Of a stretch of 64,000 nucleotides of DNA, positions 3,001 to 39,802 are shown piece after piece (the stretch's first letter is position 1; each line of letters begins with the position of its first letter). This DNA comes from Flavobacterium kingsejongi (lineage in GTDB: Bacteria; Bacteroidota; Bacteroidia; Flavobacteriales; Flavobacteriaceae): positions 930,001 to 994,000 of the forward strand of contig NZ_CP020919.1 in the NCBI RefSeq assembly GCF_003076475.1. The letters run 5' to 3'. The position numbers and the translations under genes are program-made. The notes below the pieces were generated by a model that worked only from the letters and a program-made list of their open reading frames with translations, ran no database searches and was not told the DNA's origin.

Positions 3001-4512
3001 AGCCGTATTGGTTGTCGCTAAATAATATTCATAACTTGGAGTTACCGATGTTATCGGGTTCCAGGATAAAGTAGCCGCATTTTCAGTAAGGCCCGCAATA
3101 GTAATATTAGCAGGTGCCGGACATGTTACCGGAACAATTGAAATATTATCAATTGCCGCTGGTGGTTGTGTTCCTGCACTGCCATCATTTCTCCATTCAA
3201 AAACCAATCGAACGACCTGTCCGGCATAAGCCGATACGGGTACAATAAAGTTTGGTGATAAGAAAGTAGTAGAGTTATTAAAGTGTGCTCCAATTTGAGT
3301 TCCGTTAGCCGCCGTGATTTGAGTTCCCGGTGTCGGTACAAAAGAAGCTGGCACTAACCACACTCTGAAGTAATCATAGAATGTTCCTGAGAACCCTTCA
3401 CCAACACCTTTCCAATCGAAAGAAAGATTAACTTCGTCGATGTTCGTAGGCATTTGTATATCTCTATATGCATGAACTACAGAAGTAGAGGCTACATTGT
3501 AAATGTTCAGTGCACCATCAGTGCTGCTTGATATATATAAGGAGTGGGTTCCACCATTATTGGTAGCCGTCCCGATAAACCATTTATTCAGTTGCGTTCC
3601 ATTACCAATTGTCCATAATGGAGTTCCTTCAAAACCTTCCGTGTAATTGAGTGTCGCCGGTACCTGAGTTGTTGTAAAGGTAAAAGGACCTACCCAGTTT
3701 CCGGTTGTTGCACCACAATTGGCACGAACAAAATAAGTATATGTCGTACTTGGCGTTAAACCAGTTACAGGAAACGGGTTGTTCGTTCCTGTATGCGTTA
3801 TTGTACCTGTGCCTACTGTTGGAGTTCCCTGAACGAGTTCTACGTCCCAGGAAGCTGCTGTACCCACCCATGTTAAATTAGCGGTATTCCCAGTAATATT
3901 TTGTGCTGCAGCTGTAGCTGCTGTAGGATCAAGACATTGCGTCACAAGATTAACGTCATCAATAAACCAACGTTCTCCCTGTATTCCAGTAACTTGCGTA
4001 TGCAGTTTCACAAAAGCAATATAAACCTGTTGGCCTTGGTAAGCAGCAGGAATATTAAATACCTTTTCTTCATAGGTATTGTAATTTGTGTTCATTTCCA
4101 ATTCCGTCCATTGTTTGACTACTGTATAAGCAGTTTCCAATGTTTGGGAAGTAGTAGAAATACGCAATTGAAAAATAGTCCCCTGATCTCCAGATGCCGC
4201 TTGCTTAGCAAAAAAGCGCAACTGCCCATTAATAGGTATCGAAACTTGATTACTAATTAACCAGTCTGTGTTAACCGTTCCGGCAACATCAACAGGAGGT
4301 CTATTTATTAATGCAGCCTGTGTACCAGAATGTACTGCACCAGTTGTTCCGGAATTAACCATACCCCAAGTAGGGGAATTGGCTGGCCCGGTGTGAATTG
4401 TCGTCCAACCCGTGGGCGGAAAAGACGCGCCCTCGAAGCCTTCTGTAAACTGGCCGTAGCCACTCACAAACGACAACAAGAGCATAAAAATTAATAGTGT
4501 AATTTTTTTCAT
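1..4512 (-). CDS. Large modular secreted adhesin, likely T9SS-exported (N-terminal part)
   Basis: The frame is open from an ATG at 4512 to the window edge (1504 codons, no stop), so the C-terminus lies outside. The product starts with a signal peptide (MKKITLLIFMLLLSF, cleavage near GYGQ). A cleaved-adhesin or choice-of-anchor-J-like domain (FTEGFEG start) and a fibronectin-III domain follow. Then come four modules of about 272 residues, each a MAM/adhesin-like beta-sandwich (WxxGNGTQxNKW, RDIQMP, RLVFEWRNDGS) plus an FN3 domain ending YYFWVRSNCG. Near the edge the domain type changes to one with CNLNASY-like and PFDFCFFG-like stretches, as found before C-terminal sorting domains of gliding-motility-associated proteins. 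The role is probably cell-surface adhesion or polymer binding, with export by the type IX system. The sorting domain itself is not visible, so export by T9SS is inferred from the architecture. Confidence 0.85.
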   Translation of the reverse strand, partial: MKKITLLIFMLLLSFVSGYGQFTEGFEGASFPPTGWTTIHTGPANSPTWGMVNSGTTGAVHSGTQAALINRPPVDVAGTVNTDWLISNQVSIPINGQLRFFAKQAASGDQGTIFQLRISTTSQTLETAYTVVKQWTELEMNTNYNTYEEKVFNIPAAYQGQQVYIAFVKLHTQVTGIQGERWFIDDVNLVTQCLDPTAATAAAQNITGNTANLTWVGTAASWDVELVQGTPTVGTGTITHTGTNNPFPVTGLTPSTTYTYFVRANCGATTGNWVGPFTFTTTQVPATLNYTEGFEGTPLWTIGNGTQLNKWFIGTATNNGGTHSLYISSSTDGALNIYNVASTSVVHAYRDIQMPTNIDEVNLSFDWKGVGEGFSGTFYDYFRVWLVPASFVPTPGTQITAANGTQIGAHFNNSTTFLSPNFIVPVSAYAGQVVRLVFEWRNDGSAGTQPPAAIDNISIVPVTCPAPANITIAGLTENAATLSWNPITSVTPSYEYYLATTNTAPTAATTPTGTVATASAPLSGLTPSTTYYFWVRTNCGANGGSLWTGPFTFSTTQVPAALNYTEGFEGAHQWMLSNGTQTNKWIVGSAVNNGGTKSLYISNNGTANAYTLTSTSVVHAYRDIQMPATVSQVSTVFDWRAVGEGFTGTFTDYFRVWVVPATFTPVAGTQITAANSGGQQIGVSLNNSANFTTASYVFPAAAYAGQVVRIIFEWRNDGGGGTQPPAAIDNVNISVVTCEAPTALATAGVTTTTANVNWTAPASGAASYDYYSATSNTAPNGTTVPTGNVAGTTLPLTGLNSATTYYVWVRSNCGATNGTSIWTGPVVFTTPQVPATLNYTDGFEGANPQWIMNNGTQVNKWIVGTAVNNGGTHSLYITDNGGTTNTYNLSSASTVQAYRDIQMPATVGEISVVFDWRTVGESTYDYLRVWLVPASFTPTPGTQITAAAGRVQLSQNLNASTSFVTQTYIAPASAYAGQLMRLVFEWKNDSSGGVQPPAAVDNINIGLVTCSSPSAITMAGLTENATNMSWTPPANGAASYDYYLQTVNTVPTATTVPTGNVVPATVALSGLTPSTAYYFWVRSNCGTDGTSLWTGPFSFTTPQIPAQMNFADDFEGTASWTLNNGTQTNKWIIGNAVNNGGENSLYITNDNGNSNAYTLSATTTAQAYRDIQMPAVIGEVSLSFDWRANGESIYDYLRVWLVPVTFVPTPGTQITAANSGGIQLGANFNASAAFTTQNYIIQAAPYAGQIVRLVFEWRNDGSGGTQPPAAVDNINLSALTCPSPVNLASTAETNSSTINLSWTPTGTETQWEVVVQVAGTGTPVSGVIVNGTPAYSYAANAGVFYEYYVRAICSDTESSFWSGPFAFSIYSPPGCAAVDIVGVGVDIVDSQIILCEGEAEQCVNLNASYFGIGATTSYEVSSIPYNPPFPFVGGTEMNSTIDDAWSPVINLPFDFCFFGESYTSAQVGSNGVISFNANYPANQAGSCPYSFNNQAIPATNFPIK
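691..3955 (-). repeat. Four tandem ~815-bp modules inside the adhesin gene
   Basis: The sequence GATATTATCAACTGCTGCTGG and its variants recur at about 691, 1504, 2321 and 3140, which gives steps of 813, 817 and 819 bp. An equivalent, more diverged boundary lies near 3955. Each period encodes one MAM/adhesin-like domain plus one FN3 domain. Divergence between modules is clear at the DNA level, so this is an older expansion than the repeats at 20040-24683. Confidence 0.85.
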
Positions 4513-6099: not shown

Positions 6100-7503
6100 C
6101 TATTTACTGAAATAACACGGCCTGCAGGTCTCTTTCAATTCTTTTTGATAAACCGGTATTTTTATTCCAATATAAAAATCAGCGGCTTTCGATTGTTTTG
6201 AAAGTAAATTGGTAAGTACAGAACCCGATCCAATAAAGAAAGCCCCCACCCTCAAACCCGAACCAACTTGCATTCCACTGTATTCCATCCAGGACACAGG
6301 CACATAAAAGCTAAACCAGCGACTTTCATACCGGGGCGTCAGGCTTAACCGGTTAGCAATACTATTTCCATTTAATTTATTATCAGCAACCATGCTAATA
6401 TCCCCATTTAAATTCAGGTAGTATTTGTTCGCAATATTCCAGTCTACCTCCGCATGAAGCGCAGTAGGCAGGTTGGCTCTCACGCCTTTAGTCGTTGTAA
6501 TCCTATTGTAATTCGCATTGAGGAAATCATAGATATCATCTACATTATCGATCATATCCACTGTAACTACACCATTCAGATTATAGGTATCTTGTCTGGA
6601 TTTCCTATAATGGATGCCCCCAATATCGGTTACGGATAATCCAAAACGCAATTTATACTTATTAAATTCCCTAAAACCATTATCAAGTGGGCGGGCATAC
6701 CGCAAATCATAATCTTCGTAATCCGGCCGCCATTCGTATACCAACCCGAAATCAAAACCTACTCCGGCCGAATTGATATCAAACTCTAAATCCTGGCTTG
6801 CTTCAAAGTCGTGACTGCCTCCAATAGTAACTTCTCCGTTTGAAGTCACACTGCCAAGTTTGGGATCTATAGTATTTCGAACCAATGTCAGTCCAATATC
6901 ACCGCCTTGTACATAAGCATTAGCCCCTCCCTGCAAATATTTGACTGTAAGCCCCCCTTTCAGGAAATGCTCTCGCTGTTGCACTAATACCGTTGCATAA
7001 GAAAGCCCCACTTCTCCCCAGGCATGTCCTACACCATTGGGACTGTTTCCGTTAAATTTAAAACTTTGTGCAACATCCAATCCATCTTTTACATCATCGA
7101 CAAGATTGCCATTTACCCGGCCAACATTTATTATAGAGCGTGCTCTTGTAAATAATGCCACAGTATGTTTGGGCGCAATATTAAACATAAATGAAGTCCC
7201 CATAACATCAACATTACCAATCGCATTATTAGTAGCACGAGTGGTCACTTTAGCTTCTTTATCAAAATCATACCCTTTCTTATATACATCAAAAAGCCGA
7301 ACTCCATACAAATCATTCCCTGCAAAAGCGCTCACAGAAAACAAATTAATATCAGTCTTAAAACGGGAATCTGCAATCATTGCCGGATTAAAAAGTACAC
7401 TTTGCACTCCGGCATAATTATCATGAAAATACCCCATATAGGATTGTGCCGTAGCCGTTACAGCAATATTGATAAAAAATAGGGCAAGCAAATGTTTTTT
7501 CAC
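6100..7503 (-). CDS. DUF5723-family outer-membrane protein
   Basis: A predicted secreted beta-barrel-like protein of 467 residues. After a signal peptide (VKKHLLALFF...ATAQ) come the family hallmarks YMGYFHDNYAGVQSVLFNPA and IADSRFKTDINLFSVS, then many amphipathic beta-strands. The frame extends to an ATG at 7611, but that adds 36 residues with three cysteines before the signal peptide. I therefore prefer the GTG at 7503; the promoter at 7689-7716 allows either start. Function is unknown. The family is common in Bacteroidota and resembles PorV/FadL-type barrels in general character only. Confidence 0.8.
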   Translation of the reverse strand: MKKHLLALFFINIAVTATAQSYMGYFHDNYAGVQSVLFNPAMIADSRFKTDINLFSVSAFAGNDLYGVRLFDVYKKGYDFDKEAKVTTRATNNAIGNVDVMGTSFMFNIAPKHTVALFTRARSIINVGRVNGNLVDDVKDGLDVAQSFKFNGNSPNGVGHAWGEVGLSYATVLVQQREHFLKGGLTVKYLQGGANAYVQGGDIGLTLVRNTIDPKLGSVTSNGEVTIGGSHDFEASQDLEFDINSAGVGFDFGLVYEWRPDYEDYDLRYARPLDNGFREFNKYKLRFGLSVTDIGGIHYRKSRQDTYNLNGVVTVDMIDNVDDIYDFLNANYNRITTTKGVRANLPTALHAEVDWNIANKYYLNLNGDISMVADNKLNGNSIANRLSLTPRYESRWFSFYVPVSWMEYSGMQVGSGLRVGAFFIGSGSVLTNLLSKQSKAADFYIGIKIPVYQKELKETCRPCYFSK

Positions 7504-15024: not shown

Positions 15025-15089
15025 TTATCCTCCCCGAATCTCATTTAAAAAAAACCTTTTTTAGTACATACTAATTAATACTTACTTAT

Positions 15090-16070
15090 ATGAAAAAGAT
15101 TGTCCACCATTATGGAGTCGAACTGGATTGGGCTGCGCATTTTGCCACACAACTTGATGGCACTGTAGACGGGAATTTCATCAGGATTCCCGAAACAATA
15201 CATACGGGCCACCGCTATATCCTCGAGTGCGATCCCGGAATTTCGGTGATGTATGTTGATGTGGTTTACCATAAGGAACTGCACTTGCGCCAGGAAAACA
15301 ACAATGATGATTTTGTGGGTTTGTATTACAATCTTACCGAAGGGGAAGCGGTATTGGTATCCGATACGGCGGCGAATCCTGTCGGGCGCTGGGATTATAA
15401 CCTGGCCATTGTCGACAGCTCGCTGAGTTCCGATTATATCGTAAAACCCGGAAGCCATACTTTTGCCCTCTGCATCTTTATTAAAAAGGAAGCGGTAAAG
15501 TACTATTTTAAGAAAAACCCTACCTTAAGTGAACATACCGATCGGTTGCTGGATCCCAAAACCAATACCGTCATAAAGTTTACGCGAATGAGCAATGACA
15601 GCCACAACCTGATCAGTGACCTGAGAAGCAAAACACCCGGTGGCCCTGCCTTTGACTTTTACCTTAGGGGAACTGTCATGGCACTTATTGCTGATTATAT
15701 CGAAAAAATGGATTTTAAGGACCTGGTCATCGAAACCCTGAATGAGGATGACCTGACCAGTATTATAAAATCCCAATCCTATCTGATTGATAACCTGGAC
15801 AGTGCTTTCCCGGGAATTGAATTTTTAGCACAACAGGCCAATATGTCGGAATCGAAATACAAAGGGCTGTTCAAGAAAATTACTGGAATCACGCCCAATG
15901 CTTTTTTCTTAAACAACAAGCTCATCAAGGCAAAAACCCTATTAGAGACCGGGGAATTATCTATTACGCAGATTTCTGACCTGCTGAGTTTTACCAATAA
16001 TTCATATTTTACCGTGAAATTTAAAGACTATTTCGGAATGTCCCCTAAGAAATTCATTAAACAGTTATAA
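15090..16070 (+). CDS. AraC-family transcriptional regulator (first of two)
   Basis: A 326-residue regulator. The C-terminal 100 residues hold two helix-turn-helix motifs of the AraC/XylS type (FLAQQANMSESKYKGLFKKI and ITQISDLLSFTNNSYFTVKFK), ending in the conserved FGMSPKKFIKQL. The N-terminal two-thirds is a strand-rich sensing region without a domain I can name. Its ATG lies 66 bp after the predicted promoter. The next gene, a paralogue, starts three bases after this stop, so the two form one transcription unit. The ligand and targets are unknown. Confidence 0.85.
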   Translation: MKKIVHHYGVELDWAAHFATQLDGTVDGNFIRIPETIHTGHRYILECDPGISVMYVDVVYHKELHLRQENNNDDFVGLYYNLTEGEAVLVSDTAANPVGRWDYNLAIVDSSLSSDYIVKPGSHTFALCIFIKKEAVKYYFKKNPTLSEHTDRLLDPKTNTVIKFTRMSNDSHNLISDLRSKTPGGPAFDFYLRGTVMALIADYIEKMDFKDLVIETLNEDDLTSIIKSQSYLIDNLDSAFPGIEFLAQQANMSESKYKGLFKKITGITPNAFFLNNKLIKAKTLLETGELSITQISDLLSFTNNSYFTVKFKDYFGMSPKKFIKQL

Positions 16071-16073
16071 TAT

Positions 16074-17030
16074 ATGATTGAAGTTCATCATGTCTATTCT
16101 CTTACCCCTGAATGGCAGGAGGGAATTATTAAACAGACCGGCGGAGAACTGATCGGACTCAAAAGAATGGTTTTCCCCCGGGAAATTGCGGATGGGGAAT
16201 GTTTTTTCACACAGGTTGTTCCCGGACTTTCGGTAGTATTGCTGGATCTAAATTTCAATCAGCCCATCCGGATCCGGCGACAGAGTTCGGACGAAAGCCT
16301 GTACATCATACATTATGATTTCAGCGACGAGATCAATTTGATCCACATCAACGGCAAGAAGCACAAAATCGGTTACAAAGCCAATCTTGGCCTTGGCGTG
16401 ATTGACAACAATATCGAGAACATTTTTGAACCCGCGGTAGGAGAGCGTATTTTTGCCCTTCGGCTCCTGGTTTCAAAAGAACTGCTGCGTCCGGCAATTA
16501 CATCCGGTATGCGCAATGCAACCTTATTTTTCCACGACCATATTGACAGCAGGAGTAAAATCATATTGCATGCCATTAAAAACAGGTCTCTTTCCGATCC
16601 TACTTTTGAAATACACCTCAAAAGCACTGCCCTCAAATTATTAGCCAAATTCATCGAGCGCTATACCAATCTTATGCCTTTGCTGCACCATGTCTCAGAG
16701 CCGGAAACCAAAGCACTGAACATGACCAAGGACTACTTGATGCACAACCTGTTTAGCGAATTCCCAGGATTGCCTTTTTTGGCAGAGAAAGCCGGAATGT
16801 CAATTTCCAAATACAAAGGGCTGTTTAAAAAAATGTATATCGATACCCCCAATAATTTTTTCATCCGTGAAAAAATGCTACTGGCACGCGTCATGCTGAA
16901 AAGCCAGAAGTACAAAAGCTTGACCGACGTCATCCATCAGCTCGGCTATAGTAAATTGAGTTATTTCTCTTCCAGTTATTACAAACATTTCAAAAGAAGG
17001 GCCATAGACGATTTCGAACGTTTGGAATAA
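16074..17030 (+). CDS. AraC-family transcriptional regulator (second of two)
   Basis: A 318-residue paralogue of the preceding regulator. It shares the same layout and the same YKGLFKKM-type recognition helix (MSISKYKGLFKKMYIDTPN), preceded by FPGLPFLAEKAGM. The second helix-turn-helix is more diverged (SLTDVIHQLGYSKLSYFSSS), and the typical FGxSPxxF ending is replaced by HFKRRAIDDFERLE. DNA binding may therefore differ. Translational coupling with the first gene and a similar length suggest an old tandem duplication and possibly a heterodimer. Function unknown. Confidence 0.82.
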   Translation: MIEVHHVYSLTPEWQEGIIKQTGGELIGLKRMVFPREIADGECFFTQVVPGLSVVLLDLNFNQPIRIRRQSSDESLYIIHYDFSDEINLIHINGKKHKIGYKANLGLGVIDNNIENIFEPAVGERIFALRLLVSKELLRPAITSGMRNATLFFHDHIDSRSKIILHAIKNRSLSDPTFEIHLKSTALKLLAKFIERYTNLMPLLHHVSEPETKALNMTKDYLMHNLFSEFPGLPFLAEKAGMSISKYKGLFKKMYIDTPNNFFIREKMLLARVMLKSQKYKSLTDVIHQLGYSKLSYFSSSYYKHFKRRAIDDFERLE

Positions 17031-17234
17031 AAACAGCCATTCCCAGCACAAATTAGCATCATTTTATCGCATTGACTATCAGGGTCTTTTCTGCCTAAAG
17101 CAGATGAGCCGATCACTCTTACACTATATTTTCCACCAAAATACCCGAAAAAATAACGGTTTTGTCTTATTCTACAATTAAAAAGACGTTTAGGGGTACT
17201 TTAAAAAAACTAAATGCCTCAATTTTGCAGTATC

Positions 17235-17750
17235 AATCAGCACATTAGAAATAATGACTGTATTGATCACTGTTTGTTGCTACTGTAAATCAGTAGTATA
17301 ATCAGTACAGCCCGATTGAGCACTTGGTGCTTTACAGCAAAACAGCTCAATCGATTCACCACGAGTAGTAGGTGCTGATGGTACTGGCAGCGCGACTTTA
17401 ATGATTAGGATTCAGGGGGAGCAAGCAATTGCAGAATTCAAAATTATGCGCTGCCGGACCTCAGTTACAACCATGCCACCCTTACCTTCTGGAAGGACAG
17501 GCAAAAATATAGTAGGCTGAAGGAACAACAGTGCGGTTACGTTATGATCCACGGGGAAGCAAGCAATTGCCGGATTTAATGTTACAAAAACTGCACCGTT
17601 GCCCCTCAGTGATATAGCATAGCGCTATACTACACCACATAGTAGACGGACGGACAGTACAGTAGGTTCCTATTTTCTGGGGAGACAAGCAATTGTCAAA
17701 TAGGCACCATGAATCACACACACGCTGTACTGTCAGCCATCAGTAACATC
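17235..17750 (+). ncRNA. Candidate large structured RNA with three repeated hairpin units
   Basis: This 0.5-kb stretch has no plausible ORF but many helices. Three units share one plan: an AGTAG-type lead, a long outer stem, an inner stem, a 5' bulge containing GGGGA, and a short stem capped by a GCAA (GNRA) loop. A CAGTNAYA-like tail follows. Outer stems are 17386-17393/17448-17455 (perfect), 17526-17538/17589-17601 (wobble pairs) and 17653-17662/17725-17734 (perfect). GCAA loops lie at 17425-17428, about 17565-17568 and 17689-17692. Inner stems differ in sequence but still pair (CCTATTT with AAATAGG in unit 3). Upstream hairpins lie at 17280-17296 and 17314-17352. The GNRA loop exists only on the plus strand. 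CAATTTTG at 17220-17227 is a 7/8 match to a -7 box. No known family is recognised. Confidence 0.5.
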
Positions 17751-17890
17751 TCTTCCTCTTTTAACAATCTCTTTCTTCCTTAAATGCTCCTTTGGAGCCA
17801 GTACTTCATACCATCAATTTTACATCTTCCCGTAAACGTTTTCGTTTGTCCATTGCTTCCAAAAAAAGGATCAAACGCAAAGCTTGGGGA

Positions 17891-18709
17891 TTACCCAAAA
17901 AGATTAGATAATCTAAATAAGAAGAAATCTACTTTACGCACTCCTCTAAATTGACTTCTAAATGCTTTTACTTTAGCATTAAAAGATTCTGCTGAAGCAT
18001 TTGTACTTCTATTGTCAAAATAGTTTAAGATTGACTGGTAATTAACCGTTATAGTATTTATAAGGATATTAAAATTTTTAAACCCTGACTCCTCTACATT
18101 CCTGTACCAATGTGCCAATTTTGTCATCGCAACGTGTTTATTGTTATGATTGTTGTAAATACCTCGTAGTTGTTGGGTTAAACTGTATGCCTTTTTAATA
18201 TCGGGATATAAGCCAAATAACAATTGGGCTCGTTCATTTTGTCTTTCGGTCCATTTATCGCGGGATTTATAAAGAACATATCTACTTCTGGCGAGCAACT
18301 GTTTTACAGAGTCTCCATTAGATAAAAGATCTGGGAGATAAGTTTTTTTTTCTTTTTCCGCTTGTAATATGAATCGATTCTCAGTATCCATCGCTTCCCA
18401 ACGATATTTTATTCTAATCTCCTGTAATGCTTCTAGAGCTAATTTTTGAACATGAAATCTATCGGTAACCTGTACCGCTTTTGGAAAACATTTTTTGGAA
18501 ATCAACTTCATGGAATTAGCCATGTCAAGTGTTATTTCTTGAACCCAACTTCTTTTTTTGTAATCAATTTTACAGATATGTTCAATGACCTGATCTGCCT
18601 TTGTCCCTGCAATAATAGCAACTAGGCAACCTTTTTTACCTTTAGCTTCCTTATTGGTTACAATAGTAAAAAGCTCACCCTGAGACAAGGCTACTTCATC
18701 AATTGACAA
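17891..18709 (-). CDS. ISL3/ISAon1-type transposase, catalytic part
   Basis: A DDE_Tnp_ISL3-type catalytic domain: SIDEVALSQGELFTIVTN with the first acidic residue, VQVTDRFHVQKLALEAL, and NASAESFNAKVKAFRSQFRG. The coordinates use a TTG at 18709. Conserved sequence in the same frame (CHTIGGFFGVNGKKLQRQYKK and onwards) continues upstream to about 18870 without any ATG. Full activity therefore probably needs fusion to, or coupling with, the 109-residue ORF upstream, which lies in another frame. It ends at FRLSNLFG, near the inverted repeat, so the 3' end is complete. Confidence 0.82.
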   Translation of the reverse strand: MSIDEVALSQGELFTIVTNKEAKGKKGCLVAIIAGTKADQVIEHICKIDYKKRSWVQEITLDMANSMKLISKKCFPKAVQVTDRFHVQKLALEALQEIRIKYRWEAMDTENRFILQAEKEKKTYLPDLLSNGDSVKQLLARSRYVLYKSRDKWTERQNERAQLLFGLYPDIKKAYSLTQQLRGIYNNHNNKHVAMTKLAHWYRNVEESGFKNFNILINTITVNYQSILNYFDNRSTNASAESFNAKVKAFRSQFRGVRKVDFFLFRLSNLFG

Positions 18710-18866
18710 GTGGGTACCTATATTTTCAGGATAAATAATCCACTCATGTGCATGTTCACGTTGAGCCCACGTACTAAAGGAGCTTAAATGTTTTTTGTAT
18801 TGTCTTTGTAACTTTTTCCCATTGACTCCAAAGAAACCTCCAATGGTATGACAGTCAATAGCAGTT

Positions 18867-19196
18867 TTATCTATTAATTTCTTTTAAAAAAGCCGCAAAC
18901 TCCTGAGTCATGCGGGTTCCCTTGGCAACTAGATTCCAATCTCTTTTAACGATCTCACTTGTGTCTTTATTGGTCCAGCGACGTCTTTTGATGTGTAGAT
19001 ACACGAACTTCCCTCTCAAAGGAAAGTCCTGAATAGTGATCTCATCCTGGAAACCCTTTGAGATTAACTGAAGTCCATTAAATTCTGACGGAGGTTTGGC
19101 ATTCTCTTCAAAGTATAGGTGTAATATTTCTTCTGTATTAGTAGAAGAAACCACTTCAAAATGGTCAACTAAAAAATCAGGAAGCATAAACTTCAA
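18867..19196 (-). CDS. ISAon1-type transposase N-terminal region protein
   Basis: A 109-residue first ORF of the element (MLPDFLVDHFEVV, DFPLRGKFVYLHIKRRRW, GTRMTQEFAAFLKEI). It resembles the separate N-terminal region protein annotated with ISAon1-type transposases and probably binds DNA. It ends in a TTTTTTAAAAG tract, after which the catalytic frame lies in +1 (or -2). A classical -1 slip at this tract would run into a stop within four codons, so I infer either +1 frameshifting, reinitiation, or separate subunits. Confidence 0.75.
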   Translation of the reverse strand: MKFMLPDFLVDHFEVVSSTNTEEILHLYFEENAKPPSEFNGLQLISKGFQDEITIQDFPLRGKFVYLHIKRRRWTNKDTSEIVKRDWNLVAKGTRMTQEFAAFLKEINR

Positions 19197-19403
19197 AAGC
19201 TCTATAGGGTCATATCAAATTCTTAGATTGCAAATTTCTGATTTTATTTTGACATTCCTCCCCAAGTTTTGTTCTTGATCCCAAAAAAACCCTAATCTGT
19301 TATAAAAAAAACGTATTAGGGTAATTCAAAAAAAAAAATAAGCCGTTACTTTGCAGTCTAAAACATTGTTATTCAACATCTTTTAATTACAAAACACAGA
19401 CGC

Positions 19404-22400
19404 ATGCTCCAACTTTACTTTAAAGACTACAACAAACTCAGTCTATCAATTTGTTTATTGCTCTTTACAACTCTCACTTACAGCCAGGTAGGAATTGGGA
19501 CCCTTACGCCCGATCCTTCTGCTGAGCTTGACATCACAACTGTTGACAAAGGGCTTCTTATTCCCCGGGTGCAGCTGGCGCAATCAGTGAATCCTTTTCC
19601 TATTGTCGGAACGCCAGCGAACAGTCTCCTGGTCTATAATACCACCACCATTAATGATGTTTCCCAGGGATTTTATTTTTGGAATAATAACAAATGGAAC
19701 CGACTGCTCGACCAAACCAATATCGATGAGTTCAACCAGGATATCACCAGTATGGTCGATAATGGCAATGGTACCTATACATTTACGAATGAAGAAGGGA
19801 CACAAACCCTTATCGATGTCGCCGGAATTATACTGGACCGCCAGACTTTAACTTCATTAGTTTACAACGCCACCGATCATAAGCTGACCTATACCGATGA
19901 GGCCAATGCCACACACGATTTCCTGCTACAGGATTTGGTAGGCGATGCCGAAACGGTGACCGAACTAACCTATGATGCACTTAGCAATGAACTCCGTTAC
20001 AAAGATGAAGACGGGATTACCCATACCATCAATTTAAGAGATTTAGTATCCGGTGCAGAAACATTAACGGCACTAACCTATGATGCCACTGCAAATGAGT
20101 TACAGTATAAAGACGAAGAAGGAACAATCCACAACATCGACCTTACCGACTTAGTATCCGGTGCAGAAACATTAACGGCACTAACCTATGATGCGACTGC
20201 AAATGAGTTACAATACAAAGATGAAGAAGGAACAACACACAATATCGATCTTACCGATTTAGTATCCGGTGCTGAAACGTTGACCGCACTAACTTATGAT
20301 GCGACTGCAAATGAGTTACAGTATAAAGACGAAGAAGGAACAACCCACAACATCGACCTTACCGACTTAGTATCCGGTGCAGAAACGCTTACCGCTTTAA
20401 CCTATGATACCACTGCAAACCAGTTGATCTACAAAGATGAAGAAGGAAACACACACAATATCGATCTTACCGATTTAGTATCCGGTGCAGAAACATTAAC
20501 CGCACTAACCTATGATGCGACTGCAAATGAGTTACAGTATAAAGACGAAGAAGGAACAACCCACAACATCGACCTTACCGACTTAGTATCCGGTGCAGAA
20601 ACATTAACCGCTTTGACGTACGACGCTACGGCGAATGAGTTACAGTATAAAGATGAAGAAGGAAATATTCATAACATTGATCTTACCGATTTAGTATCCG
20701 GTGCAGAAACATTAACCGCACTAACTTATGATGCGACTGCAAATGAGTTACAGTATAAAGACGAAGAAGGAACAACCCACAACATCGACCTTACCGACTT
20801 AGTATCCGGTGCAGAAACACTAACGGCTTTGACCTATGATGCGACTGCAAATGAGTTACAATACAAAGACGAAGAAGGGACAACACACAACATTGACCTT
20901 ACTGATTTAGTATCCGGTGCAGAAACGTTGACAGCTTTGACCTATGATGCGACTGCTAATGAATTACAATACAAAGACGAAGAAGGTAACACACACAACA
21001 TCGACCTTACGGATTTAGTATCCGGTGCAGAGACATTAACGGCTTTGACGTATGATGCGAGTGCAAATGAGTTACAATACAAAGACGAAGAAGGAACAAC
21101 CCATAACATTGATCTTACCGACTTAGTATCCGGTGCAGAAACATTAACGGCTTTGACCTATGATGCGACTGCTAATGAATTACAATACAAAGACGAAGAA
21201 GGTAACACACATAATATTGACCTTACTGATTTAGTATCCGGTGCAGAAACATTAACGGCTTTGACGTATGATGCGACTGCTAATGAATTACAATACAAAG
21301 ACGAAGAAGGTAACACACACAACATCGACCTTACGGATTTAGTATCCGGTGCAGAGACATTAACGGCTTTGACGTATGATGCGACTGCAAATGAGTTACA
21401 ATACAAAGACGAAGAAGGAACAACCCATAACATTGATCTTACCGACTTAGTATCCGGTGCAGAAACGTTGACAGCTTTAGCGTATGACGCTACGGCAAAT
21501 GAGTTACAATACAAAGACGAAGAAGGTAACACACACAACATTGACCTTACTGATTTAGTATCCGGAGCGGAGACATTGACGGCTTTGACCTATGATGCGA
21601 CTGCTAATGAGTTACAATACAAAGACGAAGAAGGTAATACACACAACATCGACCTAACGGATTTAGTATCCGGTGCAGAAACACTTACTGCGCTAACGTA
21701 TGATACCACTGCAAACCAGTTGATCTACAAAGATGAAGAAGGAATCAATCACCCGATTGACTTAAAAGATGTAGTAGCCGGTGCCGAAACATTGACGGCA
21801 CTAACCTACGATGCCACTGCAAATGAGTTACAATACAAAGACGAAGAAGGAAATACACACAACATCGATCTTACCGACTTAGTATCCGGTGCAGAAACAT
21901 TAACGGCTTTGACGTATGATGCGACTGCAAATGAGTTACAATACAAAGACGAAGAAGGGACAACACACAACATTGACCTTACTGATTTAGTATCAGGAGC
22001 AGAAACGTTGACAGCTTTGACCTATGATGCGACTGCTAATGAATTACAATACAAAGACGAAGAAGGAACAACCCATAACATTGATCTTACCGACTTAGTA
22101 TCGGGTGCAGAAACGTTGACAGCTTTAGCGTATGACGCTACGGCAAATGAGTTACAATACAAAGACGAAGAAGGGACAACACACAACATTGACCTTACTG
22201 ATTTAGTATCCGGTGCAGAAACATTAACGGCTTTGACGTATGATGCGACTGCTAATGAATTACAATACAAAGACGAAGAAGGTACCGATCATACAATTGA
22301 TCTTAAAGACTTAGTATCGGGTGCAGAAACATTAACTGCCCTGACGTACGACGCGACGGCAAATGAGTTACAATACAAAGACGAAGAAGGTAACACACAT

Positions 22401-27619: not shown

Positions 27620-30600
27620 ATGAGATTATATTATATTCCGGTACTATTTGTCCTAATCGCGACGAGCACGCTAAAGAGCCATGCCCAAATTAGTAACAGT
27701 AACAACCCGCACCCCTCAGCAGCAGTAGATATTACTGCTACCAACAAAGGCCTTTTGCTCCCAAGAGTAGCCCTCACCGGAACGGCAGATGTAACCACTA
27801 TTCCCGCTCCAGCCACAAGCCTCGTGGTCTATCATACTACCACTGTGGCCGGCATGCCCGAAGGATTTTATTACTGGAATGGCACCCGCTGGGAATCCCT
27901 GTCTAACGAAGCCGTGACCCATGCCTTCGCCAGTGCCGTGAATACACTAACCAGCACGGTTAACGGCGTACAAAAAACCGCACCAATCATCAATACTAAT
28001 GCACTGAACCTAACAGGAACGAACCTCACCAGTACCGTAAACGGAAAAGCCAGTGCAGCACTCAACCTGGCATCTATTGTCCCTGCTACCACTAACCTAT
28101 TGACCAGTACGGGAAATGTGTTAACGTCTAACGTTAATAATGTTCCCAAAACGGCACCTATCATTAATAGCAATGCGCTTACCTTATCAGGAACCAACCT
28201 GACCAGTACCGTAAATGGGGTAACCAGTCCAGCATTGAGTCTTGCCGGACTGGCAGGATGGAGCCTCGCAGGAAATGCAGGTACCGCTGCGGCCAACTTC
28301 TTAGGGACTACAGACAACCAACCCTTACGCTTCCGAACCAATAATACAGAGAAAATGACAATTACTGCAGCCGGTAATGTGGGTATCGGTAACACGGCGC
28401 CAACAGCACCATTACACTTTAGTACTGGAGTAGCCAACCGCAAAATAGTCTTGTTTGACAATAAAAATAACGACCATGAATTCTATGGTTTTGGAATCAG
28501 TTCCGGAATGCTCCGTTCTCATATCAATGCATCTACTGCCGCTTTTGGCTGGTTTTCAGGTGTAAATGATACTACATCGAATGAAATCATGAAATTGGGG
28601 GGCAATGGTGCCCTAAGCCTTGGTACAGCTGCCGGAACAGCCACAATGACCGGTGCACGACTGGATGTGGCCAAAGGGGAAGTACGTTTCCGGGACCTGC
28701 TGTCCAATGGAGTTGCTACCGATAGCCTCGTAACCATAACCAGTAGCGGTTACCTGAAGAAAAGAGCAATAGGCAGTATGGCATGGGGCCTCACTGGAAA
28801 TACGGCGACAGCAACCGATTATATTGGAACTAAAGCAACGGTTAATCCCTTTATTATTAAAACCAGTAGTGCTGCGACCGGAGCCGGGGCTACTCCTACT
28901 GAACGGATGCGCATCGATAAAGATGGAGTAGTGACCATTGGTAATGTAGCCGGATCACGCCTGGCTTTCAATACAGAGCCTGATGCTACTACTGATATCA
29001 ACAGCCGTAGAGTGGTACTGCATCTTGGTGCCAATGACCACCAATACCGCGGTTTTGGGATTTATAGTAATCTGCTGGTTTCACAGGTCGATGCCACTGG
29101 CGCCGATTTCCTCTGGCGCGCTGGTGCCAACGCCACGACCTCCAATGAACTCATGAAATTGAGGGGCAATGGTGCCCTAAGCCTTGGTACAGCTGCCGGA
29201 ACAGCCACATTGACCGGTGCACGACTGGATGTGGCCAAAGGGCAAGTACGTTTCCAGGACCTGCTGTCCGATGGAGTTGCTACCGATAACCTCGTAACCA
29301 TAACCAGTAGCGGTTACCTGAAGAAAAGAGCAATAGGCAGTATGGCATGGGGCCTCACTGGAAATACGGCGACAGCAACCGATTATATTGGAACTAAAGC
29401 AACGGTTAATCCCTTTATTATTAAAACCAGTAGTGCTGCGACCGGAGCCGGGGCTACTCCTACTGAACGGATGCGCATCGATAAAGATGGAGTAGTGACC
29501 ATTGGTAATGTAGCCGGATCACGCCTGGCTTTCAATACAGCGCCTGCTACTACTGATATCAACAGCCGTAGAGTGGTACTGCATCTTGGTGCCAATGACC
29601 ACCAATACCGCGGTTTTGGGATTTATAGTAATATGCTGGTTTCACAGGTCGATGCCACTGCCGCCAATTTCCTCTGGCGCGCTGGTGCCAACGACACGAC
29701 CTCCAATGAACTCATGCGCCTTACAGGAACCGGTAACCTGGGTCTCGGCATTGCAGCCCCTACCCAAAAATTACATGTAGTTGGAAAAGCCATTATTACC
29801 GCAATGGATACCGGTGCCGCTGCCGACCAGGTTGTTACTGTAGATGCTGCAGGGCTTCTGAAAAAAAGAACCCTGGCTTCGGTCGTGCCACCTACCACCA
29901 ATGCCCTGGCACTCAACGGAACCAACCTTACCAGTACGGTAAATGGGGTAACCAGTAATACATTGAGCCTTGCCGGACTGGCAGGATGGAGCCTCGCAGG
30001 AAATGCAGGTACCGCTGCGGCCAACTTCTTAGGGACTACAGACAACCAACCCTTACGCTTCCGTACTAATAATACAGAGAAAATGACCATCCTTGGAAAT
30101 GGAAACGTAGGAATAGGTACCACTGCACCAGCCTATGGATTGCACGTACAATCAACGGCAGCGGCAGGGTATGTGGCGCAATTTTCTAATAGTACTAATG
30201 TTCATGGTGCTGTATATGTAAGGGATACTAATGACGGTAACACTGGAATTGCCGGATCTTATTTTGGCACACGCACGAACCATGGAACTAATATTATGAC
30301 AAATGCAATCTCCCGCATTGCCATAACCAATGCAGGACGTGTAGGGATTGGACATAATGCACCCACCTACACCTTAGATGTAGTAAGTACTACCAACGAC
30401 GAATTATTAGCTAGTTTTCTACCCCAAAATAAAACAGAAGGTATTGCTATCGGATTTTCCGGAATCAGTAAAATTGCTTCTACTGCTAACAGTGACCTAA
30501 AGATTTCACCTAAAGGAACCGGAAAAGTTAATATTGATGGCCCTGCATTAATTAAAACCTTACCTGCCGGAACTGTAGGAGAACAGGTCGTAGTCGTAGA

Positions 30601-31291
30601 CGGCTCCAATAACCTGAAAAAAATAGCCGCTGCTTCGGTAGGAAAAACCTATGTAACGCGAGCAACAACAACAGCTGCCGTAACTTCGGCTACTTCTGGC
30701 ATTACGACTACAGCAACAGTACAAAACACAGGAGCCTACTGGAATGCAAACCAATTACAGGGTAGAACAGTGGCTGCTACAACTCCAGCAGCGGGACAAA
30801 TATTGCGATATGACGGCAGCCAATGGCAGCCTTACACCACCGCAACCTATTCCCCTACTCTCGTAGGTAACCTGGGCACTGGTCAGACCCTGCCAGCAAA
30901 CAATGCACATGTCTGGACCCGGGCTCAAATCACATTACCAGCTAATTCTAAATATATCATTACGGTAAACATGCTGGCCACCTCACACCCCAACCGGGCA
31001 CCGAACAACTCCTATGTATGGATACGTTCTTGGTTTTCAAATTCCAGTACCAATTCTACTCCAACGGGGGATAAGATAGGGGGAGGACTGGTGAGTGGTA
31101 ATATAACCGCCAACTCCCTATACACTATGGTTAACGGTACAGTGATCCTGCACAATAGCAGCAATGCTGCCAAAACCTATTATTACTGGGCCCATACCGA
31201 TGACCGTTTTGGTAATCCCAATGTTTTCAATAGTTTTGGCCGTATTACCGATGGGGAAAACCAAATGTTTGCAGTACCTATTGATAATTAA
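27620..31291 (+). CDS. Secreted fibre-like protein paralogous to the giant protein
   Basis: A 1223-residue protein with a signal peptide (FVLIATSTLKSHAQ) and the same head type as its upstream neighbour (HPSAAVDITATNKGLLLPRV, GFYYWNGTRWESL). The middle has TLTSTVNGV-type repeats and several NFLGTTDNQPLRFRTNNTEK units. A 188-residue block (WGLTGNTATATDYIGTKATV to SGYLKKRAI) is tandemly duplicated. A late segment (THxLDVV, NDELLASF, IGFSGISKIASTANSD) is closely shared with the giant protein. The C-terminus is different: a jelly-roll-like domain (LPANSKYIITVNMLATSHPN) ending EDRFGNPNVF-like, GENQMFAVPID. There is no visible sorting domain. It starts 20 bp after the giant gene, so co-transcription and a shared surface structure are likely. 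Confidence 0.82.
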   Translation: MRLYYIPVLFVLIATSTLKSHAQISNSNNPHPSAAVDITATNKGLLLPRVALTGTADVTTIPAPATSLVVYHTTTVAGMPEGFYYWNGTRWESLSNEAVTHAFASAVNTLTSTVNGVQKTAPIINTNALNLTGTNLTSTVNGKASAALNLASIVPATTNLLTSTGNVLTSNVNNVPKTAPIINSNALTLSGTNLTSTVNGVTSPALSLAGLAGWSLAGNAGTAAANFLGTTDNQPLRFRTNNTEKMTITAAGNVGIGNTAPTAPLHFSTGVANRKIVLFDNKNNDHEFYGFGISSGMLRSHINASTAAFGWFSGVNDTTSNEIMKLGGNGALSLGTAAGTATMTGARLDVAKGEVRFRDLLSNGVATDSLVTITSSGYLKKRAIGSMAWGLTGNTATATDYIGTKATVNPFIIKTSSAATGAGATPTERMRIDKDGVVTIGNVAGSRLAFNTEPDATTDINSRRVVLHLGANDHQYRGFGIYSNLLVSQVDATGADFLWRAGANATTSNELMKLRGNGALSLGTAAGTATLTGARLDVAKGQVRFQDLLSDGVATDNLVTITSSGYLKKRAIGSMAWGLTGNTATATDYIGTKATVNPFIIKTSSAATGAGATPTERMRIDKDGVVTIGNVAGSRLAFNTAPATTDINSRRVVLHLGANDHQYRGFGIYSNMLVSQVDATAANFLWRAGANDTTSNELMRLTGTGNLGLGIAAPTQKLHVVGKAIITAMDTGAAADQVVTVDAAGLLKKRTLASVVPPTTNALALNGTNLTSTVNGVTSNTLSLAGLAGWSLAGNAGTAAANFLGTTDNQPLRFRTNNTEKMTILGNGNVGIGTTAPAYGLHVQSTAAAGYVAQFSNSTNVHGAVYVRDTNDGNTGIAGSYFGTRTNHGTNIMTNAISRIAITNAGRVGIGHNAPTYTLDVVSTTNDELLASFLPQNKTEGIAIGFSGISKIASTANSDLKISPKGTGKVNIDGPALIKTLPAGTVGEQVVVVDGSNNLKKIAAASVGKTYVTRATTTAAVTSATSGITTTATVQNTGAYWNANQLQGRTVAATTPAAGQILRYDGSQWQPYTTATYSPTLVGNLGTGQTLPANNAHVWTRAQITLPANSKYIITVNMLATSHPNRAPNNSYVWIRSWFSNSSTNSTPTGDKIGGGLVSGNITANSLYTMVNGTVILHNSSNAAKTYYYWAHTDDRFGNPNVFNSFGRITDGENQMFAVPIDN
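28772..29896 (+). repeat. Tandem 564-bp duplication in the second fibre gene
   Basis: The GGCAGTATGGCATGGGGCC block recurs at 28772 and 29336 (offset 564 bp, 188 codons). The second copy lost three bases (EPDATT against APATT), preserving the frame, and diverges from about 29716. Confidence 0.88.
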
Positions 31292-31309: not shown

Positions 31310-32548
31310 ATGAAAAATATACGAACTTCCTGTTTCAGCTTTTTAGCCCTCCTAAGCTATAGTGCCGTCCAGGGCCAATTTTACAATACCGCCCAGGTGG
31401 TAGTGCAGCCCGGGAGCCTGCTTTCCATCCATTCCGATTTTGAGAATGCCGCAACAGGGACATTCCGGAATGATGGTGAAGTCCACATTTTGCAGCATTA
31501 TAATAATGATGGCCAGGTCACCTTTCATCCTGCACACCAGGGAATTACGGTATTTTCAGGAAACAGTGTCCAAACACTGATGAGTATTGCACCTGGTGCC
31601 AAGACCGACTTCAAACATTTAGAACTGAATAATCCTACACCGGTCATGGCGATTGACCTGTGGTCGCCCATCCAGATTTTTGGTACGGCCAGCTTTATGC
31701 GGGGAATTGTCGATGCGCGCACCAATGCCGGGTTAGTTACCTTTGGCGAAGATGCCGCAGTAACCAATGCCGACGAAGACAGCTTTATCGATGGCCCCAC
31801 GGTAAAAGTAGGATCCAATGACTGGACCTCTCCTATTGGGCACCAGGGCCATTACCGCCCTGCCGGCCATACCCAATTGGCCGGGAGCGAACAGTACCGA
31901 AAGCAGTATTTTATGGAAAATCCCGGAACCCTCTATCCGCTATCGCAAAAAGCATCCGACGTCTATGTGATCAACCAGAACGAATATTGGGAAATGCATC
32001 GGGAAGTGGGGAACACGATGGCTGTAATTACGCTATCCCTTAATCCGGCAACCACACCCTCCTATCTCTTTGAAGAGACACCCGGCACTACTTTACAGAT
32101 CGTACGCTGGAATGAAGACACCCAGCAATGGATCTCCCAGGGTGGTATTGGCGATAGTGGACTGACCGAAGTATCAGCATTGGTAACCGGTTATGGTGTG
32201 TTCACGATAGCACTGGTATTTGAGGATGATCATGAAAGTTTTGATGGCATGGTCTTTTACAATGGGGTATCGCCAAATGGTGATGGCAAAAATGACTTTT
32301 TCCACATTAGTGGTATCGAGCGTTATCCCGACAATACCCTCGAGATTTACAACCGGTATTCACAGTTGGTATACCGTGTCGATAGTTATAATGAAACGGA
32401 AAGGGTCTTTAAAGGAATTTCCAATACAAGCCTCAATGTCAATAAACCAGCGGGACTACCTGTGGGAACGTATTTCTATGTACTGAAATACAATAACGGC
32501 CACAGGACCAAATCCAAAACTGGATACCTCTACATCAGTAACAAATAA
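31310..32548 (+). CDS. Secreted protein with gliding-motility-type T9SS type B sorting domain
   Basis: A 412-residue protein. After the signal peptide (SFLALLSYSAVQGQ) comes a strand-rich region (about residues 24-310) with no named domain (SDFENAATGTFRNDGEV, GIVDARTNAGLVTFGED). The C-terminal 90 residues are a type B sorting domain: GVSPNGDGKNDFFHISGI, LEIYNRYSQLVYRV and GTYFYVLKYNNG...KTGYLYI. Such domains direct export and surface attachment through the type IX system with a PorP/SprF partner, and one is encoded nearby at 38286-39203. It is the last gene of the fibre operon, 18 bp after the second fibre gene, and could anchor or cap the fibres. Confidence 0.88.
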   Translation: MKNIRTSCFSFLALLSYSAVQGQFYNTAQVVVQPGSLLSIHSDFENAATGTFRNDGEVHILQHYNNDGQVTFHPAHQGITVFSGNSVQTLMSIAPGAKTDFKHLELNNPTPVMAIDLWSPIQIFGTASFMRGIVDARTNAGLVTFGEDAAVTNADEDSFIDGPTVKVGSNDWTSPIGHQGHYRPAGHTQLAGSEQYRKQYFMENPGTLYPLSQKASDVYVINQNEYWEMHREVGNTMAVITLSLNPATTPSYLFEETPGTTLQIVRWNEDTQQWISQGGIGDSGLTEVSALVTGYGVFTIALVFEDDHESFDGMVFYNGVSPNGDGKNDFFHISGIERYPDNTLEIYNRYSQLVYRVDSYNETERVFKGISNTSLNVNKPAGLPVGTYFYVLKYNNGHRTKSKTGYLYISNK

Positions 32549-32573: not shown

Positions 32574-32708
32574 GGAAAAAGTGAGAGGTCAGATAGAGGA
32601 AGTAAGAAGTAAAACTGATGTTGTCGAAGTGGTTTGAGGCCACAGGCAAGATGCCCGCGGGAGCGAAAATTACGAAACATAGTTTCTTTACAACTAAATA
32701 CCACATAG
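32574..32708 (+). repeat. Dispersed hairpin repeat, copy A left half (split by IS256)
   Basis: A purine-rich leader (AGTGAGAGG, GAAGTAAGAAGTAAAA) precedes TTGTCGAAGTGG and a GCCACAGGCAAGATGCCCGCGGG hairpin core. Its right half resumes at 34079 beyond the IS256 element. Copy B at 34972-35128 shows the uninterrupted form. Confidence 0.8.
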
Positions 32709-34127: not shown

Positions 34128-34340
34128 GTAAAAGAAGTGAGACGTGAAATGGAAGAGGTAAAAGTAAACCGGACGTTGTCGATGTAGTTTGCGGCCACGG
34201 GCAGGATGCATCTCTCATTTTACCTCAACCATCTTACCTTTTCCCTTTTACTTCTCCACATCTTACCTTTTCACCTCTTACTTCCTCACCTCTTACTTTT
34301 CACTTCTTCACCTCTCACCCGCTGCTCTTTACTTTTCACA
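34128..34340. repeat. Partial repeat copy (left half) and polypyrimidine tract
   Basis: 34131-34210 repeats the left half of the dispersed element (GAAGTGAGACGTGAAATGG leader, TTGTCGATGTAGTTTGCGGC, then CACGGGCAGGATGC), where it stops. 34208-34340 is almost pure C/T on the plus strand, built from TTACCTTTT, CACCTCTTA and CTTCTTCAC-like heptads. It is the complement of the purine leaders of the neighbouring repeat copies. No gene is present here. Confidence 0.7.
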
Positions 34341-34971: not shown

Positions 34972-35128
34972 CAGTGAGAAGTAAAACCGGACGATACCGA
35001 ACGTAGTTTTCGGCCACGGGCAGGATGCCCACGGGAACAAGAACTACGGAACCTATTTACTTTACTACTAACTAACGCAAAGGCTACCGCGAGGTTCAAG
35101 CTCGTGGCGACAATCAGAATCCATAACT
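34972..35128 (+). repeat. Dispersed hairpin repeat, copy B (complete)
   Basis: An uninterrupted copy of about 157 bp. It has a short purine leader, GGCCACGGGCAGGATGCCC with a CGGGCA/TGCCCG hairpin, an AACTACGGAACC spacer, then CTACCGCGAGGTTCAAGCTC with a CCGCGAG/CTCGTGG hairpin and CAGAATCCATAAC. It shows what copy A looked like before IS256 entered. Confidence 0.8.
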
Positions 35129-35135
35129 ATTATAA

Positions 35136-35228
35136 AGAAGTAAGAGGTAAAAAGTGAGAGGTAAAAAGTAAAAACCGATGTTGTCGCTGTAGTTTGCGGC
35201 CACGGGCAGGATGCCCGCGGGAACGAAG
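35136..35228 (+). repeat. Dispersed hairpin repeat, copy C (left half)
   Basis: Starts with a long purine microsatellite (AAGTAAGAGGTAAAAAGTGA and onwards), then CCGATGTTGTCGCTGTAGTT, GCGGCCACGGGCAGGATGCC and GCGGGAACGAAG. The right half is absent. 35229-35324 after it is unremarkable. Confidence 0.78.
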
Positions 35229-35324
35229 AAAAGTGGGACGTACAGCTAAGGTATGTCGACGTAGTTTACATCTATCTAATACCGAGCTCCACTTCTCACT
35301 TCTTCCCTTCTAACACTCAAAAAA

Positions 35325-35871
35325 TACGTCGAGGGACGTATTCCGATACGTCGAGGGACGCCAAATTATACGTCGAGGGACGTGTCGCGACCACACCTTT
35401 GACGTGTCGCGACACGTCCGGGGACGCCAAATTATACGTCGGGGGACGTGTCGCGACCACACCTTTGACGTATCGCGACCACACTTGGGACGTAAAATGA
35501 CCACACCTCCGACGTATCGCGACACGTCCGGGGACGTATCGCGACCACACTTTGGACGTATAAAATGCACACTTTGGTGTGGTCGCGACCTCGACTTACC
35601 GTATAGTTTTTCACACTTTAGTGTCAACGTGACCTCGACACACCGTATAACGATGCACACTTTGGTGTGGTCGCGACCTCGATTTCACGTATCAGATGCA
35701 CACTTTGGTGTGCACGCGACCTCGACCCACCGTATAACGATGCACACTTAAGTGTGGTCATAAATTCGATCCTATGTATCGGATGCACACTTTGGTGTGC
35801 ACGCGACCTCGACTTACCGTATAACGATGCACACTTAAGTGTGGTCATAAATTCGATCCTATGTATCGCCC
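35325..35871 (+). repeat. Phased 22-bp tandem array, 25 units, GC-rich and non-coding
   Basis: From 35325 to 35676 the sequence divides into 16 consecutive units of exactly 22 bp. Nine more follow to 35871, three of them 21 bp. In units 1-11 each unit is a left 11-mer (TACGTCGAGGG, CCACACCTTTG, CACGTCCGGGG and relatives) joined to a right 11-mer (ACGTGTCGCGA, ACGTATCGCGA, ACGCCAAATTA, ACGTATTCCGA, ACGTAAAATGA). The pairings are mixed freely. From 35567 units alternate between GCACACTTTGG-type palindromes and CCTCGACTTACCG-type units, giving a 43-44-bp dimer repeat. 35696-35782 and 35783-35869 are nearly the same. Period 22 is not a multiple of three, so the ORFs here are artefacts. There are no unique spacers, so it is not a CRISPR. 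Confidence 0.9.
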
Positions 35872-39203: not shown

Positions 39204-39802
39204 TTCGTTTAGTTTCCGGAATACGGATGTCCGCATTCGCTAATTGTCATTAATTCATTTAAATAGTCAGTAATTCCAACTACCAGAGGCGGTATGATCT
39301 TTTTGATTACTGTAAAATAGGAGGCGATATTCTATACTATGCAGCACTGCGATGCTTGCCCCCCTACAGAAAAGGGTATAAAAATCAAACACTACCCAAC
39401 CCAATTAGGGCTGTTACTGGTAATATTGGGGCAAAATTACTCCTTGGAGAACGTACCGATTACCCCAATACGTCATTATAATATCAGAATAGGACAATTC
39501 GTACCCATAATCGGTTGATTATAAACAATCCCATCCCTTTTATTGCAGGAATAGATTGCATAAGGGCCACTAAGCAACTGTAAATGTGTAGTCTAATTAC
39601 ACAGGATCCTGAAACAACCGGAACGTACTCCAATTTTTAAAATCGCAAAATGGCACGAATGAATCCGGTGTTTAGCAGCAAGACGCTATTTTTTACAAGT
39701 CCGGTACGGCTCCCGTTCTCATAGGCCGGATGGAATGTTTAAAATAGTCTTAATGGAACCATTTTTTAATAACTTTTCTTTTTTTAATAGGGATAAAAAA
39801 GA
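39204..39802. other. Long divergent intergenic region
   Basis: About 600 bp between divergent porP and hmuT. On the minus strand TAATTTTG (39439-39432) matches a -7 box for porP without a convincing -33 partner. I see no RNA gene, repeat or ORF that I can support in the rest. Confidence 0.4.

Follow-up and report, generated by a model that had tools for sequence, protein, structure and literature searches.

A three-unit structured noncoding RNA, probably regulatory, beside adhesin-like genes of Flavobacterium kingsejongi

Closest described RNAs

Only a small number of structured RNAs are understood in Bacteroidota, a phylum that often lacks the classic RNA chaperones. CsrB and RsmZ are protein-capturing RNAs with several GGA-bearing structured sites, and CsrA is their classic partner. 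In Flavobacterium kingsejongi, a noncoding stretch bounded by a pair of AraC-type regulator genes (15090-17030) and by an ISL3-type element contains a single module in three diverged copies, and the RNA predicted from this stretch is comparable to CsrB and RsmZ in having several GGA-bearing structured sites within one molecule. It differs in consisting of three large covarying modules with the G-run placed in a bulge, and CsrA was not found in the F. kingsejongi genome (0 of 1), with 3 of 14 control genomes being positive. The FopS small RNAs of Bacteroides, bound by RbpB, are likewise Bacteroidota RNAs occurring as several paralogous copies; compared by description, FopS is presented in the cited account as a 14-member family repressing SusC-like transporters (PMC11697453), whereas here three copies share one locus near adhesin-like genes. 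The ornate RNAs ROOL, GOLLD and OLE (PMC12286853) are large, free-standing and heavily folded, a likeness in general form, but the present RNA matches no Rfam covariance model. Finally, Rfp18 is a structured small RNA of Flavobacterium with a predicted adhesin target, reported as widely conserved in the genus (PMC9723704), whereas this RNA, again compared by description, was found in a single genome.

Scanning the window, by which we mean the whole 64,000-nucleotide stretch analysed, with Rfam 15 at gathering cut-offs yielded no match, and relaxing the limit to E <= 10 across 17030-17900 gave three matches, all far under their own cut-offs. This agrees with the first-pass annotation, made from the sequence, which could not assign the fold to a known riboswitch, 6S RNA, tmRNA, RNase P or intron. 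As far as our Rfam and literature searches of limited depth go, the RNA is new as a family; a new mechanism is not claimed. Type III toxin-antitoxin RNA, expected to have a toxin gene next to it and short repeats that are nearly identical, was considered and set aside, since the neighbours are AraC regulators and an insertion sequence and the units are long and diverged.

Table 1. Features of the locus; positions refer to the window.
Feature	Position	Strand	Remarks
AraC-type regulator 1 (AraC1), 326 aa	15090-16070	+	HTH_18 and HTH_AraC
AraC-type regulator 2, 318 aa	16074-17030	+	HTH_18
P1 operator-like site, upstream of the RNA	17166-17199	+	identities 25/34 with P3, 23/34 with P2; next-best in window 21
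P1 -7 box CAATTTTG	17220-17227	+	one base off TAnnTTTG; start predicted near 17232
Predicted structured noncoding RNA	17232-17752	+	about 520 nt, 3' end uncertain; z -5.5; without long ORF
5' domain, hairpins CTGTATTGAT/ATCAGTACAG and CGATTGAGC/GCTCAATCG	17235-17363	+	z -4.8 alone
Unit 1	17366-17469	+	95.1 bits with model R1 (built from the units)
Unit 2	17510-17614	+	103.6 bits with R1 (built from the units)
Unit 3	17640-17748	+	57.9 bits with R1; 26.5 bits when the model excludes unit 3
Core motif GGGGA and CAAGCAATTG	unit 1 17416-17431; unit 2 17553-17569; unit 3 17679-17695	+	
ISL3-type insertion sequence	17868-19281	-	DDE_Tnp_ISL3; between RNA and adhesin promoter
P2 operator-like site, upstream of the adhesin-like gene	19291-19324	+	27/34 identities with P3; box TACTTTGC at 19347-19354
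Giant repetitive protein, 2731 aa	19404-27599	+	adhesin-like by its repeats; ORF and repeats
1223-aa protein	27620-31291	+	no Pfam match
Protein with CHU_C type IX secretion signal	31310-32548	+	
OmpA-family protein	36066-38270	-	
PorP/SprF (type IX secretion)	38286-39236	-	PF11751, E 3.6e-81
P3 operator-like site, upstream of the PorP/SprF-OmpA operon	39460-39493	-	-7 box TAATTTTG at 39432-39439

Architecture, fold and distribution of the units

Fold and covariation were computed directly from the locus (Table 1). The three units share the element order that had been read from the letters in the first-pass annotation, all of its listed elements being present: a TAGTAG lead that forms the 5' mark of every unit, a long outer stem, an inner stem, a 5' bulge with GGGGA, a CAAGCAATTG hairpin closed by a GCAA loop, and a TCAGTNAYA tail as the 3' mark. 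The outer stems stand in register (GGCAGCGC, AACAGTGCGG and GACAGTACAG, one per unit), and the inner stems read GATTC/GAATT, GATCC/GGATT and CCTATTT/AAATAGG. Pairing is thus kept by differing sequences, and the covariation proposed within the locus was borne out by compensation in 10 of 27 pairs as against 0-4 with slid partners. The unit alignment has 72 of its 77 cells paired (93.5%), compared with 29-36% when partners are slid by 1-3 columns; these counts lean towards structure because the alignment was fitted by hand, with loop bases deleted and N placeholders added. A partly independent check comes from leaving unit 3 out: a model built from the other two units recovers it, unedited, with 26.5 bits (E 9e-6), and at E <= 1 it is the sole additional match in the window. 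Invariant columns amount to 6 of 6 in the lead, 4 of 4 in the tetraloop, 4 of 7 in the bulge, 3 of 5 in the tail, 5 of 19 at other unpaired positions and 24 of 50 at paired ones; therefore the lead and loop are kept while the stems change with compensation.

The whole structured region folds at -168.8 kcal/mol (z -5.5; 0 of 100 shuffles equal), with single-unit stretches reaching z -3.5, -3.0 and -3.3 against shuffles. The extra hairpins noted upstream lie in noncoding DNA as proposed and make up a predicted 5' domain (z -4.8 alone); in the predicted fold this domain and the spacer hairpins fold together with the units, and R1 detects no fourth unit within 17235-17363 at E <= 1. The minus strand is also well folded (z -4.6 versus -5.6 for plus), so the strand assignment rests on the promoter and the GNRA loop. 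The latter occurs on the plus strand only, as had been stated: GGGGAN{1,2}CAAGCAATTG is found three times in the F. kingsejongi genome, each time in this locus and in this orientation. The longest open frames of the structured part are 39 aa (plus) and 59 aa (minus). The locus probably encodes one plus-strand RNA of roughly the 500 nt first suggested, although a search 3' of unit 3 gave no clear plus-strand terminator. Altogether, an unclassified, structured, three-unit RNA gene is well supported.

The predicted ensemble leaves GGGGA mostly unpaired in units 1 and 3 (0.6-0.9) and gives a mixed picture for unit 2 (0.1-0.8). The lead is unpaired or mostly unpaired in unit 2 and partly so in unit 1, and that of unit 3 is mostly paired. 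A long-range helix between 17375-17381 and 17737-17743, suggested on first inspection, is absent from the minimum-energy folds, where these bases instead pair with 17236-17240 or with the interior of unit 1, or with 17811-17816 when a longer stretch is folded; it is nonetheless possible, since forcing it costs only 2.2 kcal/mol (-166.6 versus -168.8).

Relatives of the RNA were sought in several ways. Blastn of the region returned nothing from 99 other related genomes or from plasmids and phages, and R1 identified no unit beyond the three in the F. kingsejongi genome. R1 was further applied to four overlapping draws, each including F. kingsejongi itself, from the genus (398 genomes), the family (397), the phylum (395) and near-complete genomes of the genus (386); sensitivity is limited, such large draws using stricter filters. 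Outside F. kingsejongi these yielded, in the same order, 4 (E limit 0.05), 4 (0.01), 0 (0.003) and 2 (0.003) weak matches of 21.9-26.1 bits. The ten are taken as chance: there is one per genome, GGGGA is present in L239 and AAGCAAUU in L192 and L238, and none has both. Two of them, L194 and L244, look alike by eye. The core motif occurs once among 198 other genus genomes, in G010, inside a 283-aa open frame, and was not accepted as a relative. A wider scan for it listed at least 118 genome-contig and 66 viral-contig stretches; within this listing, L068, L126, L160, L169 and L174, which lie outside the present locus and combine an inner stem of at least 5 pairs with GTAG upstream, were judged by eye to be chance. 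Beside the AraC pairs of relatives, R1 detected nothing in 12 regions and nothing in 9 further loci, the F. kingsejongi locus apart. Nine intergenic stretches next to such pairs were also folded: four of the five long ones fold no better than usual (z -1.1 to 0.95) and the fifth has z -2.8, with the four short ones at z -2.1 to -5.9. Thus homologues with covarying stems, the lack of which had been named at the outset as refuting the reading, did not convincingly emerge from the genus, family and phylum model searches, and the covariation accordingly comes from three paralogous units only. Distant relatives may have escaped detection, as even unit 3 reaches no more than 26.5 bits with the two-unit model.

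Promoter-like sites and the AraC-type pair

Promoter similarity and gene order were likewise computed directly. The sequence upstream of the RNA, at 17166-17227, resembles sites before the giant adhesin-like gene and the PorP/SprF-OmpA operon, and in all three (P1, P2 and P3), whose operator-like halves are of the CTTATTCTG and ACGTATT type, a TAnnTTTG-like box follows after 27-28 bases. P3 was found by scanning with the RNA and adhesin promoter regions. With 34-base boundaries picked after the alignments had been seen, the ungapped comparison over both strands of the window places P3 and P2 as the best two matches of P1 (next 21), and P2 (27) and P1 (25) as the best two of P3 (next 23); P2 is best matched by P3 (27), and a site at 15034 (24) stands just above P1 (23), so that the three rank within each other's top three. 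Across the 190-base stretch around P1 the adhesin promoter scores 60, versus 58 for the best of about 1000 random windows. The RNA and adhesin-like promoters moreover share TTAGGG and TTTGCAG separated by 28 bases, a combination present genome-wide at these two promoters and one other place (control 1), and two matches in the window arose in 1 of 100 shuffles. The operator pattern by itself is not significant genome-wide (6 matches versus 4 for the reversed control); a possible fourth operator at 15034, upstream of AraC1 itself, is weak (17.4 versus 43-46), and a promoter-like 41-mer reaches at best 29/41 in relatives, the background level of the window.

TAnnTTTG and TAnnTTGY are reported -7 boxes of Flavobacterium psychrophilum, at -12 to -5, and the latter is also predicted before the sprB adhesin operon of that species (PMC9723704). 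P3 fits the former fully, P2 the latter, and P1 is one base off either. The start predicted from P1, near 17232, lies at the edge of the structured part, where transcription would begin. As the promoter of the RNA resembles those of the adhesin genes, it is therefore probably a regulatory RNA made together with them.

The AraC-type pair, which the region had been noted to follow, is likely tied to it through the shared operator-like site. Homologues of the two genes are also paired in other genomes of the genus. Among 120 listed AraC1 homologues, those named belong to Flavobacterium except one named only as compost metagenome, and a near relative among them (P0001, source tag lgn) is 96% identical; PorP/SprF and OmpA genes lie near the AraC pair in 5 of 12 fetched relative regions. 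A matrix of the three sites, scanned over these 12 regions (100,812 bases), gave as its four best matches L233 (17.2), L235 (16.9) and two sites in L225 of genome G004 (14.7 and 13.9). The first is located upstream of a minus-strand open frame starting at 370 and the second upstream of a 149-aa frame; of the G004 sites one directly precedes the called sprF start and one lies about 200 bases upstream of AraC1, both then followed by TTTTGCA. The G004 sprF box precedes an internal ATG, which would suit better as the start. The relatives contain 3 matches of at least 13.9, compared with a mean of 0.47 for 300 column-permuted matrices (0.7% of which reach four), with the caveat that the top score of 17.2 falls within the permuted range (best 19.7) and that the reversed matrix has one match at 16.6. 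These matches are suggestive of an AraC-pair regulon. Within the window, a shared upstream operator-like sequence, as members of such a regulon would carry, was found, to be read subject to the permuted, reversed and random-window controls, and membership of the RNA in the adhesin regulon is fairly supported by these comparisons. The tie of the RNA to adhesin and type IX secretion genes is unexpected and likely regulatory. Apart from the RNA, P3 (39460-39493, minus) and the L225 sites at 4278-4311 and 6607-6640 (minus) may define an AraC-pair regulon of adhesin/SprF clusters in Flavobacterium. Similar 149-aa proteins of unknown kind occur near AraC pairs of two relatives, at L253 2023-2472 (minus) and L235 4229-4678 (minus).

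The ISL3-type element has an 8-bp duplication, CAAAAAAA, and ends that are alike at 19 of 24 positions. Elsewhere in the genome there are nine long copies (97-100% identity) and five partial ones, all without the RNA and matching only from about the start of the element itself. Judged from sequence, the element came later and separates the RNA from the adhesin promoter, the earlier order being AraC pair, RNA and adhesin-like operon, all on the same strand; its removal places the RNA directly upstream of P2 and the adhesin-like gene, about 120 nt from P2. The transposase is split in two frames, 17891-18709 and 18867-19196, and some copies elsewhere look head to tail or nested (G000 2943664-2946515 and 2288566-2291310). 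The giant protein contains many repeats of about 36 residues, an adhesin domain search of it was without match, and the RNA has only 12-base matches with its repeats.

Proposed role and competing readings

Our leading reading, put forward tentatively and at somewhat below even confidence, is a free-standing RNA gene regulated by the AraC pair together with the adhesin-like and PorP/SprF-OmpA operons, whose three copies of a recognition module would act multivalently. It draws on the compensation among the copies, the invariant lead and tetraloop, the mutual similarity of P1, P2 and P3 with their boxes at nearly equal spacing, the operator matches and the PorP/SprF and OmpA genes near AraC pairs in relatives, and the gene order prior to the insertion. 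Counting against it are the mostly paired unit-3 lead and the mixed GGGGA of unit 2, the lack of a clear terminator after unit 3, the searches that gave no homologue outside F. kingsejongi, the missing CsrA, the promoter and operator controls given above, and the message-pairing ranks with accessibility given below. The pair would switch on all three transcription units through promoters with one shared operator, binding that we infer from the sites. The resulting RNA of about 520 nt would hold three diverged copies of a hairpin module of about 105 nt, in which stem sequences would drift with compensation because they only hold the fold, whereas the lead, the run of GGGG and the hairpin ending in GCAA would be kept. 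That one motif set occurs three times suggests a single partner bound three-fold; the recognition sites might capture or scaffold an RNA-binding protein, or pair with messages, and adhesin expression would be tuned in this manner. A bolder version appears doubtful to us, namely a new class of multi-module scaffold RNA with three GNRA-tipped modules in one transcript, made with the adhesin and the type IX secretion system and aiding their production or assembly via three-fold binding of one partner. If true, an RNA specific to this lineage would nonetheless have been built into an AraC regulon older than itself. With three copies inside it, the RNA brings its own covariation evidence, and the likely link to the AraC pair, beside adhesin and type IX secretion genes, offers a direct experimental handle.

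The units could alternatively be aptamers or folding domains, three in tandem, within a long 5' UTR that ran from P1 into the adhesin-like gene and has since been cut by the insertion sequence. Tandem riboswitches do exist (PMC9481103), and prior to the insertion the RNA was positioned upstream of the adhesin-like gene on the same strand, at the short distance from P2 given above and with no plus-strand terminator-like site found by the search. A second promoter-like site, P2, is however located between them, providing the adhesin-like gene with its own copy after the RNA. No Rfam riboswitch, and hence no known aptamer class, was matched, and the copies have drifted far apart, whereas riboswitch ligand pockets are usually kept. 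We regard such a leader as unlikely.

Equally unlikely in our estimate is a base-pairing small RNA, acting whole or cut into three RNAs of about 105 nt in the manner of a paralogous family, for which FopS of Bacteroides provides a described case (PMC11697453). Congruent with this, each unit bears the same 5' and 3' marks, and the invariant lead is mostly unpaired in unit 2. On raw duplex energies for the 26 start regions of the window, 31310 ranks 1st, AraC1 2nd, the adhesin-like gene 13th and sprF 24th. A shuffled-RNA control moves three start regions of this locus to the front, namely 31310, AraC1 and the adhesin-like gene (0 of 20 shuffles equal each), but it ignores accessibility and comprises one set of 20 shuffles. 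Counting accessibility puts the adhesin-like start region 6th, 31310 16th and sprF last; the two leading targets (12087 and 59046) lie outside the regulon, and no regulon message stands out. The candidate contact is the unit-1 GGGGAGCA bulge, as 17416-17427 is predicted to pair with the adhesin-like start-codon region at 19401-19410, yet 2 of 20 shuffled targets equal it. The folding of the 5' domain and spacer hairpins with the units also speaks against this reading, and message pairing is counted as a lead only.

Template switching can copy one hairpin arm into the other, and quasi-palindrome repair might in this way keep the hairpins matched, so that the covariation would be mutational and free of RNA function. 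The well-folded minus strand and the lack of relatives found elsewhere would fit such an artefact. Against it, the copies agree in their unpaired motifs, and the structure is bordered on its 5' side by a promoter-like sequence that genes of regulated type also have; we consider it very improbable. Weakest of all, to the point that we scarcely credit it, is a DNA element acting as a single-strand hairpin for a transposase or recombinase (REP/RAYT, an IS200/605 end or an integron attC): REP elements have GTAG-like feet ahead of their hairpins, which the units resemble, but the three copies are confined to one locus rather than dispersed, the ISL3 element has its own ends, and no reverse transcriptase, Y1 transposase, tyrosine recombinase or integrase was seen among the 12 ORFs scanned across 12482-39236, which likewise argues against a retron.

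Two further repeat types were observed by eye in the window. At 35320-35870 noncoding DNA is densely packed with palindromic repeats of the GACGT and CACACTTTGGTGTG types, and a hairpin-like GGCCACGGGCAGGATGCCCGCGGG-type sequence recurs, more or less complete, at 32620-32660, 34170-34220, 35000-35040 and 35190-35220.
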